Shown: positions 18,312-22,838 of the stretch, piece after piece
How positions within the stretch are numbered: position 1 is the first letter of the stretch
How the letters are laid out: the number at the start of each line of letters is the position of its first letter
From: Halieaceae bacterium
Lineage (GTDB): Bacteria > Pseudomonadota > Gammaproteobacteria > Pseudomonadales > Halieaceae
Direction: 5' to 3'
NCBI GenBank assembly: GCA_902623175.1
Contig: CACNSR010000002.1
Location: 1-64,000, forward strand
Length of the DNA: 64,000 bases
Notes under the pieces: generated by a model
What the model saw: the letters and a program-made list of their open reading frames with translations, nothing else
Databases searched by the model: none
What the model was told of the DNA's origin: nothing
Position numbers and translations under genes: made by a program

Positions 18312-20588
18312 TTAGAAATCGATGCCTATTCGAGCCATCAACTGACGTGGAGGGATAAACTGATCACCGGTGGCGCCCACGCCAAATACATCGGTAAAGC
18401 GCGCATTGATGCCGTCCTTATCCGTCAGGTTTCTACCGATCAGCTCGACCCGCCAGTTGGCGTTGGTCGGCGAGAAGCGCAACATCAAATCAAAGGTGTC
18501 GTAGCTGTCCACCTCATCGGTGATGGGGTTATTGAAGATGCGGTGTCTGAAGTCACCCCGGTGGGTGTAGCTCACGGTGCCCTCGAAATCACCCCAGCTC
18601 CCGATGTCATTGCTATAGGTGAGCGCCAGATTTGCGGTAAAGCCGGGTGTCTTGGCCAGCTCGTTACCTCTGACATCGGCAATCTGGCCTGCCCGGGCAG
18701 TCTCTACCTCGGGGCTGAATAGGCTGATGCCCTGAGCGAGCAGTGCATTTGTCGCGGCCTCGGACTCGACGTTGTCCAGCGCCAGATGGCTTGAGGTGAT
18801 TTCGGTATCCAGCCAGGCGAGGCGGGCATCGAATATCAGTGAGTCCGTGACAAACGCGCCAAGTTCTAGCTCAGCGCCCATGATTTCCGATTGAGGGATG
18901 TTGCCCACGCCGCCCTGGAACACCTCCGGGTCAGTGGCTTGATACTGGAGGTTGTCGTAAGTGTAAAAGAACGCCGAGCCGTTGAGTCGAACCCTGCCCT
19001 CGACGAGGTCGGTTTTAACACCGACCTCAAAGGCATCAATTGTTTCTTCCTCAAAAACAGGCAATACCACGATCGGTGACACCACGTCTTCACGGCCGAA
19101 GGTCAGATTAGAGCCGCCGGGCTTGAAGCCTCGCGTGTAGGAGGCATAGGTCATGGTGGCGTCACCAAGATCGACCTCCAGAGCCAGTCTCCCGGTCACT
19201 TTCTCACTCTCGATCTCGAGAATCTCCGTGCCCTCGCGGCCGTAGAAGTTGGTGACAGCGCTGTAAACCTCATCCTCGGTATACCGCAGACCGGCGATCA
19301 TGCGAATGCTATCCGTAAATGACCAGGTGCCCTGACCATAAACCGATATCGACTCGCGTTCCGGTTTTGAATCCGAGATGAAGCCTACGTCGCCCCCATA
19401 GGCATAGATATCGTCGAGAGTGAAGTCGTCAAAGACGCCATCAAACCCGAAGTCGAGCCGCTCAAGAATGCTGATGTCGACCTCAGTGTCTAGGTAGAAC
19501 ACACCTGCCACCCAATCGAGGCGACCAAAAGCCGGCTCGTTCGAGATCAGATTGAATTCCTGTGTGGTCGTTTTTTGTTCGTTGGTTTCAGGGTCAAAGT
19601 AGCTTTGCAGCAAAAAGAAGGGCGGTAGCGTGCGGTAGTCGTGGCGGTCGTTGTCGCGCTGGATCGCAATATCGTCATTCTGGTAGCTGGTTAGTGACTT
19701 TAGCGTTATCCCGCCGAGGTCCCATTCCAGCGTCATGCTGTAAAGCTGTGATTCGAGTTCATAGCTTGAGAGAGAATCCTGAGCGAGTTTGCGGGCGCCA
19801 GGCGTCGGGTCATAAATCCCTTTCTGCGCCTGACCATTCACCTCTTCGTCAAACAGCTGCGCGGTAAATGTGGCGGAGAACGTGTCGCTCGGTTGAATCA
19901 GCAGCTTGGCGCGGGCAGAGATGCTGTCAGCGTCGTCGAGGTCTTGTCCATTGCCAACGTTGTCAGTGAAGCCATCGTGCTTGTGGCTCATAACAGAGAC
20001 GCGCGCCGCTACTGATTCGCTGAATGGGATGTTCATCGCAGCGCGGGCCTTCGCCAGACTGTATTCCCCCAGAGTCAGGTCTGCAGTACCCGAGAAATTG
20101 TCGAAGGTGGGCGCTTTGGTAATCACGTTAATACCGCCGCCGGTGGAATTTTGCCCGAACAGCGTGCCCTGAGGTCCTCTCAAGACCTCGATGCGCTCCA
20201 GATCAAGGAAGTCTGTTTGCAAAGCAAAGGGTGAGGCCACATAGACACCATCGAGGTGATAGGAGACCGACGGGTTGGCGATCGCGTTTTGGTTCGCCTC
20301 GTTACCGACACCACGGATAGTGATAACGGTTTTAAAGCCCTCGTTCTTGGCGACATTTACACCGGGTGCGATCGCGCTGAGGTCAACAAAAGAGGTCAGC
20401 TGGCGATTTTCCACGTCCTCCGCGCTGAGTGCAGTGACCGCTTGAGACAGGTTCTGCAGGCTCTCTGTTCGTTTCTCTGCGGTGACTAATACTTCCTCAA
20501 ATACGGGCACTCCCTGTGCCCAACTTCCTGCGGATACGGCAATAACAAGCGGACTGGCCACCGCGGTCAGTAAACGACGATTCTTCAC
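18312..20588 (-). CDS. TonB-dependent outer-membrane receptor
   Basis: 758 residues. Signal peptide (about 1-25), then a TonB-box-like segment (FEEVLVTAEKRTESL, about 30-44), the plug domain (about 45-160, with ITIRGVGNEANQ, YHLDGVYV and RIEVLRGPQGTLFGQNSTGG), and a β-barrel ending in a C-terminal Phe (ARIGIDF). Members carry large or scarce nutrients across the outer membrane using TonB-ExbBD energy. The closest style is the Caulobacterales/NOR5 group of unassigned substrate receptors (RTESLQ, GVNV, DGVYV). No linked siderophore or B12 genes, so the substrate is open. A 750-bp gap separates it from the MFS gene, which lies upstream on the same strand. Confidence 0.92.
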   Translation of the reverse strand: MKNRRLLTAVASPLVIAVSAGSWAQGVPVFEEVLVTAEKRTESLQNLSQAVTALSAEDVENRQLTSFVDLSAIAPGVNVAKNEGFKTVITIRGVGNEANQNAIANPSVSYHLDGVYVASPFALQTDFLDLERIEVLRGPQGTLFGQNSTGGGINVITKAPTFDNFSGTADLTLGEYSLAKARAAMNIPFSESVAARVSVMSHKHDGFTDNVGNGQDLDDADSISARAKLLIQPSDTFSATFTAQLFDEEVNGQAQKGIYDPTPGARKLAQDSLSSYELESQLYSMTLEWDLGGITLKSLTSYQNDDIAIQRDNDRHDYRTLPPFFLLQSYFDPETNEQKTTTQEFNLISNEPAFGRLDWVAGVFYLDTEVDISILERLDFGFDGVFDDFTLDDIYAYGGDVGFISDSKPERESISVYGQGTWSFTDSIRMIAGLRYTEDEVYSAVTNFYGREGTEILEIESEKVTGRLALEVDLGDATMTYASYTRGFKPGGSNLTFGREDVVSPIVVLPVFEEETIDAFEVGVKTDLVEGRVRLNGSAFFYTYDNLQYQATDPEVFQGGVGNIPQSEIMGAELELGAFVTDSLIFDARLAWLDTEITSSHLALDNVESEAATNALLAQGISLFSPEVETARAGQIADVRGNELAKTPGFTANLALTYSNDIGSWGDFEGTVSYTHRGDFRHRIFNNPITDEVDSYDTFDLMLRFSPTNANWRVELIGRNLTDKDGINARFTDVFGVGATGDQFIPPRQLMARIGIDF

Positions 20589-20917
20589 CTAAGGCTCCTT
20601 GATGATTGACTGGCTACACCAACTAACAAGACGCAATCCGTATGCCAATTACGGAAATACGGCTAGCGTGCAAAGCGATATATTGCTTATATCTACGGGG
20701 TCTGAGCAGCAACCGATGAATGACCCTGTTTTGCACCGATTCAGTGCCAAGGTCGGGCTAAATTAGGGCCACGTTTTCTGCTCAAATCGCCGTGTGACTC
20801 TACCGAAAGCCGAGGAAGTTTGCTCCTCTTATTCGGGTAAAACAGAGCAAGTTCGTGAATGGATTGCGAAGATTGATGGCTAACTTACTAGTTTGGTTGA
20901 GATTGAGACATTAAGGA
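20589..20917. other. Upstream region of the TonB receptor; no gene seen
   Basis: About 330 bp holding the receptor's upstream region and the approach to the RNA promoter. No credible ORF; it becomes AT-rich towards 20920. Confidence 0.45.
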
Positions 20918-20973
20918 AATTTTTCTAAAAATTTTCAAAAAAAGGTTGACGAGTCTGATCGGATTGGTAATAT
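20918..20973 (+). promoter_or_regulatory. Strong promoter with UP-like element for the 21-kb RNA
   Basis: An A/T tract rich in AAATTTT and AAAAATTTT (20918-20943) directly precedes TTGACG (20946-20951), then a 16-bp spacer and TAATAT (20968-20973). Predicted start about 20980. The layout matches promoters of abundant stable RNAs. Confidence 0.65.
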
Positions 20974-20979
20974 TAACAA

Positions 20980-21198
20980 TGCCGACGGCGACCGACGAGT
21001 GACCAACTGCAGACGGAAGCGAGGGGGAAGCCGGAGGAAGAGTGCTCAGGTAGAAAAGCGTAGCGGAGGGCCGGCACAAACGCAGTTCGCTACCCACCGA
21101 GGGTGAGGGGATACCACCCGAGGGGCCAGATGGAATCCCGGTCTGGACGCCTGAGAGGCTCGAATAAAAAAAACAGAGGGAAGCCTCTGTTTTTTTTT
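20980..21198 (+). ncRNA. Candidate structured non-coding RNA (~220 nt), family not recognised
   Basis: The transcript is bounded by a strong promoter and an intrinsic terminator and has no credible ORF. Pairings read by eye: closing helix CTCAGG (21045-21050) with CCTGAG (21150-21155); inside it three hairpins, GTAGCG/CGCTAC (21060-21065, 21088-21093), GGGTG/CACCC (21101-21105, 21115-21119) and CCAGA/TCTGG (21126-21130, 21142-21146). The first loop can also pair outward: GCAGTT (21082-21087) with AACTGC (21005-21010), a pseudoknot, and CCGGC (21071-21075) with GCCGG (21030-21034). It does not match what I know of 6S, RNase P, 4.5S, tmRNA or common riboswitches. The nearest downstream genes are on the other strand, so it is probably trans-acting or autonomous. 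A CsrB/RsmZ-like sponge is possible but GGA motifs are not clearly enriched. Confidence 0.6.
21166..21198 (+). terminator. Intrinsic terminator of the 21-kb RNA
   Basis: A-tract, stem AACAGAGG (21172-21179), GAAG loop, CCTCTGTT (21184-21191) and a run of nine T (21190-21198). The flanking A and T runs could make it work in both directions. Confidence 0.88.
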
Positions 21199-21341: not shown

Positions 21342-22838
21342 TCAGCCCTTGGTCTGCCCCAGCTCAACTACGAAATCCTGCTGCAGGGTTCTGGCACACA
21401 TTAAGAAGCAGGCCGAAGCGATCAGAAAGATACTGGCTGTGACCGCCATCGCAAACTTGAGCCCCTCGGAGTTGGCGTTTCGGCACAGCTCGTCATTAGT
21501 CACTGAGCGCACCATGTCGGTTGTTTTGCAGGCTTCAGGTGACAGAAGCGTGGCGGGGTTCAACAAAAGCAGTTCGCGCTGCATGAAAAAGTCACTCATG
21601 AATCCGACGAAATAAGGTCCGATGCCGTTTCCGATCAGCGACACAAGTATGAGTAGCACGGCGATAGCAGTTGCTCTAGAGCGGTTACTGACCACGCCCT
21701 GACCAATGTTGTACTGAGCGCCTAGGTAGCTGTAATGAAAGACCGCACCAATACCCCAGAGTACAAAAACGGCAGTCAGGTCCTCTGAGAAGAAGGCGGC
21801 CGCGTAAGCGGGTACCGCTATCGCAACCCCCAAGGCCGGCACCCATGCTACAGCGGTAGGCGATCGCTCCGTCAATCGCTCTGTGACGTAGCCGCCCAGG
21901 AAGGTCCCGATTGCCGCCATGAGAGAAAGCGGCGCACCAAATTGCAATGCGGCGTCGCGCACACTCAAGCCATGCTCGCGCTGTAGAAATGGTGCTTGAA
22001 ACGAGATCAAGCCGTACCCGACAAATGCGACCGACGATGCGGCAATCGCCATCCACCAAAACGAGGGCTTGCGGCGCAGCTCGGCAAAGGTCTCTGGCCA
22101 GTCGGGTGCGCGATCTGCGCTTTGACTGGGAGGGTCGGAATAACCTCGGGGTGCCTCCTTGATGCTCGCCCAGACCAGCCACGCGATCAGCACGCCCGGA
22201 AGGCCGACTGCGACAAAGGCGATACGCCACCCTTCAATATTCGCCCAGTCTAGGCCACCAAACAGCCAGCCCAGACCGATGCCGCTCAACCAGTTCCCCA
22301 CATCGATGCCCTGCATCTGTGCGATCGGGCCACCAAAGACGTTGGCCAGCACACTGCCGAGAGTCACGCCCATGGAGTACACCCCCAGTGCAGTGGCGCG
22401 TTTTCGGGCGATGAAGTAATCGCCGATCAGCGAGTTCGCAGGCGGTGTGCAGCCGGCCTCGCCGATGGCGACACCAATCCTGAACAGGAGTAAGGTGAAA
22501 AAACCAATGGCCACACCACAAAGCGCGGTCATGATCGACCACAGCACGATGCACAGGCTGATGATATGCACTCTGTTAGAGCGATCTGCCCAGAGCGCAA
22601 TGGGCAAGCCCATCACTGCGTAAAAAATGGCGAATGGCGGCCCGTATAGCAAACCCCACTGGGCATCGGTGAGTTGAAATGACTCGATGATTGGCTGGGC
22701 GACGACTGCAATTAATGTGCGGTCGACGAAATTCAGCGTGTACACCAGCATCAGCAGGATCAACACATAGTGGCGATAGGTGGGTGAGCCGTATCCGGTC
22801 AAATGCCCGTTAGCGGCGTCACTTGCGGTGGTTTGCAT
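21342..22838 (-). CDS. MFS transporter, spinster-like
   Basis: 498 residues with 12 membrane helices. N-terminal YVLILLMLVYTLNFVDRTLIAVVAQPI and the motif-A-type loop (GLPIALWADRSNR, about 95-107) are typical of spinster-type MFS carriers common in catabolic regions of marine proteobacteria; GEAGCTPPANSLIGDYF is also family-typical. A long C-terminal loop (about 440-470) with two Cys precedes the last helix. Probably organic-acid or aromatic uptake; substrate unknown. Transcribed towards the RNA terminator and the TonB receptor. Confidence 0.85.
   Translation of the reverse strand: MQTTASDAANGHLTGYGSPTYRHYVLILLMLVYTLNFVDRTLIAVVAQPIIESFQLTDAQWGLLYGPPFAIFYAVMGLPIALWADRSNRVHIISLCIVLWSIMTALCGVAIGFFTLLLFRIGVAIGEAGCTPPANSLIGDYFIARKRATALGVYSMGVTLGSVLANVFGGPIAQMQGIDVGNWLSGIGLGWLFGGLDWANIEGWRIAFVAVGLPGVLIAWLVWASIKEAPRGYSDPPSQSADRAPDWPETFAELRRKPSFWWMAIAASSVAFVGYGLISFQAPFLQREHGLSVRDAALQFGAPLSLMAAIGTFLGGYVTERLTERSPTAVAWVPALGVAIAVPAYAAAFFSEDLTAVFVLWGIGAVFHYSYLGAQYNIGQGVVSNRSRATAIAVLLILVSLIGNGIGPYFVGFMSDFFMQRELLLLNPATLLSPEACKTTDMVRSVTNDELCRNANSEGLKFAMAVTASIFLIASACFLMCARTLQQDFVVELGQTKG

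Follow-up and report, generated by a model that had tools for sequence, protein, structure and literature searches.

The RNA gene and its neighbours

The window (the whole stretch of 64,000 nucleotides analysed here, from a Halieaceae bacterium) carries a short plus strand unit flanked by genes for a TonB-dependent receptor and an MFS transporter (Table 1). Both neighbours lie on the minus strand, confirming that no plus strand gene follows the unit, and a minus strand open reading frame of 120 amino acids overlapping it gave no Pfam match. Using cmscan, we found that the unit matches the family RF02034 (IMES-1) at full length and above the curated cut-off, with an E-value of 1.8e-28 over the window. 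The segment 20918-21198 is virtually certain to be an IMES-1 gene, judging from this match, and it is the only copy found in the assembly. A 2009 study of marine metagenomes reportedly presented IMES-1 as abundant; it is a catalogued RNA for which we know of no function. The preliminary description had called the RNA unassigned. That no known family matches it is wrong, the significant RF02034 match being the very outcome that the description had named as speaking against the claim. Its proposal that the unit is a structured RNA gene standing alone, with a terminator and a promoter of the stable-RNA type, is well supported. The window contains no match to 6S RNA (RF00013) at the gathering score, and its score with the IMES-5 model (RF02995) is 13.5 bits, far below the cut-off of 96.1.

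The promoter is formed by a -35 element, TTGACG (20946-20951), and a -10 element, TAATAT (20968-20973), separated by a spacer of 16 bases. A promoter scan gave 3 promoter-like sites (0.5 expected from shuffles), two of which are overlapping registers of this same promoter. The A/T-rich tract and both elements recur in nearly all listed IMES-1 copies, L312 and L332 being without a clear TTGACA; the UP-like tract and promoter first recognised by inspection are thus present, picked up by the scan and found again in relatives. It is plausible from this promoter that the window RNA is highly abundant. The -10 element is covered by a near-perfect palindrome, TTGGTAATATTAACAA, which is the only match in the window to TTGGTAATATTACCAA when up to 3 mismatches are allowed (0.09 expected). 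In 8 Luminiphilus copies of this type, the 16-base palindrome of the TTGGTAATATTACCAA type is intact or almost intact, and the listed SAR86 promoters showed none over their -10 element. It is possible that 20964-20979 is an operator of some regulator, for which it is a candidate.

At the other end of the unit, the sequence CAGAGG-GAAG-CCUCUG is followed by nine T, and A-U pairs lengthen the stem in the predicted fold. The CAGAG...CUCUG part is invariant (68/68 rows of the alignment described below). The nine-T intrinsic terminator that had been claimed is therefore present in the sequence, in the fold and in relatives; a simple terminator scan did not list it.

Table 1. Coordinates of the genes, signals, helices and loops at the IMES-1 locus of the window
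Feature	Position	Strand	Basis
Upstream neighbour, TonB-dependent receptor	18312..20588	-	PF00593, PF07715
UP-like A/T-rich tract	20917..20945	+	sequence; similar A/T tracts before TTGAC in most listed copies
Sigma-70-type promoter TTGACG-16-TAATAT	20946..20973	+	promoter scan; same layout in nearly all listed copies
Near-palindrome TTGGTAATATTAACAA over the -10 element	20964..20979	+	TTGGTAATATTACCAA pattern search
Putative transcript, ~219 nt	20980..21198	+	start inferred from -10, end inferred from terminator
IMES-1 RNA, RF02034 model 1-191	20986..21173	+	132.8 bits (gathering score 81)
Helix P1	20986-20989 with 21030-21033 (20986..21033)	+	two-sided changes in 4/4 pairs; 79.0% of cells
Helix P1a	20996-21000 with 21019-21023 (20996..21023)	+	two-sided changes in 5/5 pairs; 87.1% of cells
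Loop 1 hexamer CUGCAG, self-complementary	21007..21012	+	counted in 112 copies
Helix P2, closing the multiloop	21045-21050 with 21150-21155 (21045..21155)	+	two-sided changes in 4/6 pairs; 85.0% of cells
Helix P3	21060-21065 with 21088-21093 (21060..21093)	+	two-sided changes in 6/6 pairs; 97.1% of cells
Loop 3 hexamer GCCGGC, self-complementary	21070..21075	+	12 hexamers in 112 copies; tree
Helix P4	21101-21104 with 21116-21119 (21101..21119)	+	two-sided changes in 3/4 pairs; 97.8% of cells
Loop 4-loop 5 contact, GGGAU with AUCCC	21108-21112 with 21135-21139	+	covariation in alignment A2
Helix P5	21126-21130 with 21142-21146 (21126..21146)	+	two-sided changes in 3/5 pairs; 99.4% of cells
Intrinsic terminator, 6-bp stem and nine T	21174..21198	+	sequence, fold, conservation
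Downstream neighbour in convergent orientation, MFS transporter	21342..22838	-	PF07690; orthologues served in the empty-site test

Conserved helices and self-complementary loops

The putative transcript has a predicted folding energy of -91.2 kcal/mol, against a mean of -69.5 for its shuffles (z -5.33), and none of 200 shuffles folded as well. The structure of the family was analysed in several sets of copies. Alignment A2 combines distinct copies of Luminiphilus with those of one SAR86 family, 68 in all (68 of 69 were used, one truncated copy being dropped), and alignment A3 contains 27 copies of 28, the last being dropped as a member of another family. A larger set was built from 190 extracted stretches, many of which are the same place fetched repeatedly, and which reduced to 97 distinct cores with partial copies at contig ends omitted; 15 f54 copies cut out by position were added. 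The resulting set of 112 copies, 111 of them differing, does not include every IMES-1 place found in the genome scans.

In A2, the nested structure composed of P1, P1a, P2, P3, P4, P5 and the terminator comprises 36 pairs; 91.8% of cells are paired, and two-sided changes occur in 26 of the 36 pairs. Its covariation score is 0.487, compared with at most 0.108 when the partners are slid, and the count of further pair types is not unusual (reached in 72 of 500 shuffles). The multibranch fold that had been predicted from the letters is thus stable with respect to shuffles, and the helices of the family covary. The window copy has these same helices and is a stand-alone gene, not the leader of one gene, and nothing in it excludes membership of IMES-1. 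The least regular helix position is the innermost pair of P1, broken in 40 of the 68 rows. Two pairs of P1a are, in the window, tandem G-A/A-G mismatches, replaced by A-U or U-A in many SAR86 copies; the tandem G-A mismatch is a stable motif.

A pseudoknot between 21005-21010 and 21082-21087, proposed in the preliminary description, is perfect in the window, yet only 66.3% of cells pair across the 68 relatives. We rejected it: three of its six pairs fail (in 61, 57 and 19 rows, respectively), and no pair displays a two-sided change. A different contact is supported in its place, with loops 4 and 5 pairing in cis. The first four pairs between these loops are standard in all 68 rows of A2 and the fifth in 35, with two-sided changes in three pairs. 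A search by regular expression detected the complement in 102 of the 112 copies, distributed between the types GAGA/UCUC (88), GGGAU/RUCCC (12), AGGAU/AUCUU (1) and GAAGA/UCUUC (1); it was not detected in the remaining 10 (6 with none, 4 with other runs). The structure line given by cmscan for IMES-1 includes neither this contact nor the self-complementary loops described below.

Loops 1 and 3 each carry a self-complementary hexamer. That of loop 1 is CUGCAG in 85 of the 112 copies and CUCGAG in the other 27, with the layout AA-hexamer-A in 111 of them; it is invariant in A2 and changed once on the tree of all 112 copies. Loop 3 evolves much faster. Its hexamer exists in 12 versions (GUCGAC, GUCGAU, GUCGGC, GCCGGC, GUAUAC, GUUAAC, GUUGAC, GUGCAU, GUGCGC, GCUAGC, GGUACC and GCAUGC), with at least 20 changes on the tree, which was computed with both hexamers masked, and it is self-complementary in 112/112 copies. 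A purine lies immediately 5′ of it in all 112 copies and immediately 3′ in 111. The partial copies L009, L010, L011 and L014, which are outside these counts, have GCCGGC in loop 3 as judged by eye.

Both hexamers self-pair in 408 of 408 cells of A2, a value that none of 500 shuffles reached (shuffle mean 94.5%). Loop 1 being invariant in A2, this signal comes from loop 3. Two hexamer pairs have two-sided changes, an unremarkable number that was also attained in 265 of 500 shuffles, and sliding the hexamer partners by -3 still gives 94.9%, on two countable pairs. The two bases at the centre of loop 3, which are neighbours in the strand, are each other's strongest covariation partners and rank 8 among column pairs that are at least 90% canonical. 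Other partners are stronger for the middle pair (96-99), and for the outer one (95-100) the score is close to zero. Since adjacent bases cannot pair within one strand, the covariation of the two centre bases points to pairing between two molecules. When stem-loop 3 regions were considered on their own, 70 of 70 distinct regions contained a self-complementary hexamer, compared with 21.1 expected from shuffled letters. As a control, we analysed 10 6S RNAs of these genomes; self-complementarity reached 80% of rows in 2 of 163 windows and exceeded it in no window. A2 itself contains one further self-complementary window, in an arm of P5, at 0.9; further hexamers that are self-complementary in every row, all invariant, number one in A3 and two in the f54 set.

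We propose with good confidence that loop 3 of one molecule would pair with loop 3 of another. Loop 1 probably does likewise, though our confidence is lower here. The adjacent covarying bases that characterise the self-complementary loop of a homo-oligomeric RNA are found in loop 3 only, loop 1 varying too little. Computed duplex energies range from -11.7 kcal/mol for GCCGGC, the hexamer of the window, to -3.4 for GUUAAC and -2.6 for GUUGAC, so the weakest loop 3 hexamers would need help from the loop context in order to pair.

Hosts of IMES-1 and relationship with IMES-5

We searched for IMES-1 in the order of genome G302, which contains the named SAR86 genomes examined and is called here the SAR86 order. 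A match was obtained in 128 of its 203 genomes (121 over the cut-off), belonging to 18 of 22 genera; many of these genomes are incomplete and some copies lie at contig ends, such that counts of absence are upper bounds. In the family of one named SAR86 genome, 84 of 107 genomes matched (81 over the cut-off). Among eight named SAR86 loci, six had IMES-1 over the cut-off with cmscan, and all eight of their genomes did. The family of the window gave a match in 14 of 140 genomes, 12 of them over the cut-off and all from the genus of the window (1 of 28 genera). One of these 12 genomes is named Luminiphilus, and we refer to the genus as Luminiphilus-like. Among 369 genomes drawn evenly from the class, three gave IMES-1 (the genome of the window, G302 and G553). 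When E-values up to 1 were allowed, the IMES-1 model also matched in 7 of 14 control genomes. All of these matches stayed below the cut-off, and sub-threshold matches alone were not trusted. One such match, in G043 (28.7 bits), is unlike the family by eye and was not counted.

Several genomes have two or three IMES-1 matches, some in tandem. Six loci (L323, L278, L330, L345, L348 and L353), from one SAR86 genome each, carry two copies about 0.3-1.3 kb apart, and in five of the six a separate promoter is listed for each copy.

In the midpoint-rooted tree of the 112 copies, the 12 Luminiphilus rows form one group (98), which clusters with six SAR86 rows (SH-aLRT 98) and is separate from the remaining SAR86 copies; for the Luminiphilus rows, the tree came with warnings about long branches and composition. 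This placement of the Luminiphilus copies among SAR86 copies suggests a transfer, and IMES-1 was probably acquired from SAR86 by the Luminiphilus-like genus.

Twenty loci have a match to the MFS gene with at least 74% identity; IMES-1 is present in seven and absent from 13 within the stretch examined. At four of the 13 (in G011, G120, G115 and G126), the TonB receptor gene still adjoins the MFS gene, without IMES-1 between them. The gap in G011 (L451) resembles the 3′ half of IMES-1, with a local score of 47 against 37 for the best of 300 shuffles; the empty sites of G120, G115 and G126 have local scores of 15-19. The G011 site is probably a decayed remnant of IMES-1, in which case at least one absence would have arisen through decay. 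Together, the syntenic sites without IMES-1 and the decay in G011 suggest that the RNA is probably dispensable in the genus of the window.

At least 120 stretches of viral contigs match a short conserved pattern, and a four-copy profile detected IMES-1 in a single one of those listed, L111. This contig of 2162 bases, from a viral collection, ends inside IMES-1 (2071-2162), which is fused to other sequence. From the viral stretches listed, we rejected a phage origin of IMES-1, as L111 is probably a chimaeric assembly. L036, L043 and L052 gave weak matches to the R1 model (E 8e-4 to 2e-3), whose ends are, by eye, terminator-like hairpins.

The IMES-1 model matched only weakly in one family of the SAR86 order, f185. 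In four genomes from one genus of this family, the best match was IMES-5, with 124-129 bits. Three genomes from another f185 genus gave sub-threshold matches, and cmscan around the best of these (L429-L431) found neither IMES-1 nor IMES-5. When 27 IMES-1 copies from another family of the SAR86 order were made into a model, this recovered all four IMES-5 loci at E-values of 5e-10 to 2e-8, the next best match having 8e-4; these E-values are rough, and the model includes the terminator. IMES-5 and IMES-1 have AACUCGAGACG of loop 1 in common. The four IMES-5 copies read keep CUCGAG in loop 1, their third loop has no conserved hexamer by eye, and the IMES-5 model is shorter than that of IMES-1. No clan is shown by cmscan for either family. 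From these similarities, IMES-1 and IMES-5 are likely to be homologous. The IMES-5 copies (L425-L428) are located between a tRNA gene and a trpS-like gene, named by eye.

Proposed mode of action

The genes that flank IMES-1 differ between lineages, as seen in 86 rows of copies (some being the same place fetched twice). Of 16 Luminiphilus stretches, that of the window included, seven have the MFS gene after IMES-1 and nine have other surroundings or a contig edge. The RNA has kept its own promoter in nearly all listed copies and its own terminator in the aligned ones. With such a setting, IMES-1 is very likely to act in trans.

The sequences show that IMES-1 is a stand-alone gene whose RNA folds into P1/P1a and a multiloop closed by P2 and bearing P3, P4 and P5, with loops 4 and 5 paired in cis. 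We propose that loop 3, and probably loop 1, would form symmetric kissing loops with its counterpart in another copy of the RNA, and the covariation suggests that the working form would be a homodimer or a homo-oligomer of more than two molecules. As each molecule has two self-pairing loops, the assembly could be a dimer held by two contacts, or else chains or rings. With less confidence, we suggest that this trans-acting and probably abundant RNA would offer a protein a scaffold or a platform for binding; taken singly, the platform role is a tentative assignment. We also consider, again with less confidence, that IMES-1 would not be an antisense RNA dependent on Hfq and would not switch a neighbouring gene. 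As a whole, the reading in which IMES-1, probably acquired from SAR86, has self-pairing loops, associates into a homodimer or oligomer and, less surely, offers a protein platform appears likely to us.

IMES-1 could instead be a monomeric antisense RNA that pairs with mRNAs in trans, its palindromic loops being seeds or due to chance. Its own promoter and its terminator with a U-rich end are features of many small RNAs, and Hfq is present in all four examined genomes of the genus of the window, the latter's own included. However, no Hfq match was found in any of the seven SAR86-order genomes examined (G726, G730, G813, G827, G831, G446 and G553). Moreover, the unpaired segments are nearly invariant across lineages, and loop 3, the one that changes fast, keeps its self-complementarity. 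An antisense role is thus unlikely.

Still less probable is a decoy of a known regulator, either a mimic of the open promoter as in 6S RNA or a sponge for CsrA/RsmA with GGA sites. The window copy does contain several GGA motifs, and the genome of the window encodes CsrA and gave no 6S match; this assembly is 85% complete. The other 10 of the 11 genomes examined all have a 6S match elsewhere, over the cut-off in eight, in agreement with the earlier statement that the window RNA is not 6S. This separate match sets 6S RNA apart from IMES-1, which resembles it in size and in being a stand-alone stable RNA. In addition, CsrA was not found in five of the same seven SAR86-order genomes, all five of which carry IMES-1, and the GGA sites are not conserved in the family, for instance in A3 (by eye). 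For the family, a CsrA sponge, a replacement of 6S and an Hfq-dependent small RNA are thus unlikely, either from the absence of the partner or from the presence of 6S RNA; the argument from absent partners does not apply to the window alone, whose genome has both CsrA and Hfq.

It is very improbable that the palindromes act in DNA, as a protein operator or as a restriction or recombination site. Ninety of the 112 loop 3 hexamers are indeed also palindromes in DNA, but the other 22 are self-complementary only through G-U pairs, which points to pairing of RNA. The hexamer is located in the loop of an RNA hairpin whose stem covaries, and its many changes are unlike a fixed binding site. Finally, a cis-acting leader, riboswitch or attenuator can hardly be entertained, for even though a same-strand pyruvate kinase-like gene (named by eye) starts 9-174 bases downstream in 20 of the 86 rows, all from SAR86, downstream genes differ widely, a terminator directly follows the RNA in aligned copies and both neighbours in the window are on the other strand.

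The homo-oligomeric form that we favour has precedents among larger RNAs. OLE and GOLLD are homo-oligomers with symmetric kissing loops, supported by covariation of adjacent bases and known from cryo-EM, according to PMC12286853, the main text of which does not mention IMES. OLE, GOLLD and ROOL are large RNAs with symmetric kissing loops, like those proposed for IMES-1, and their oligomers were solved by cryo-EM; no homology is claimed. Loop 1, a hexamer flanked by purines, has the layout of the dimerisation initiation site of HIV-1, in which a six-base palindrome occupies an apical loop and flanking purines are needed, as described in PMC7357161; this is an analogy only, the viral leader element being unrelated. 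No statement on self-association of IMES-1 was found in the literature searched, which left out most subscription papers and is no proof of priority.

The gene in the window is ordinary in its identity as a member of IMES-1; what is new is a testable reading of how this family works. On balance, we lean towards IMES-1 being a housekeeping-type RNA of about 220 nt that would be active as a homo-oligomer through two independent symmetric kissing loops, that occurs widely across the SAR86 order, another family of which has the related IMES-5 in at least one genus, and that was passed to Luminiphilus. IMES-1 can now be assigned hosts, which belong to the SAR86 order and to one Luminiphilus-like genus. 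The self-complementary loops lead to a sharp and cheap prediction, namely that the RNA forms a dimer or an oligomer. SAR86 bacteria are a major part of the marine plankton. If our reading is true, an RNA of this plankton group would be directly testable in vitro, and natural RNA homo-oligomers would not be confined to very large RNAs.
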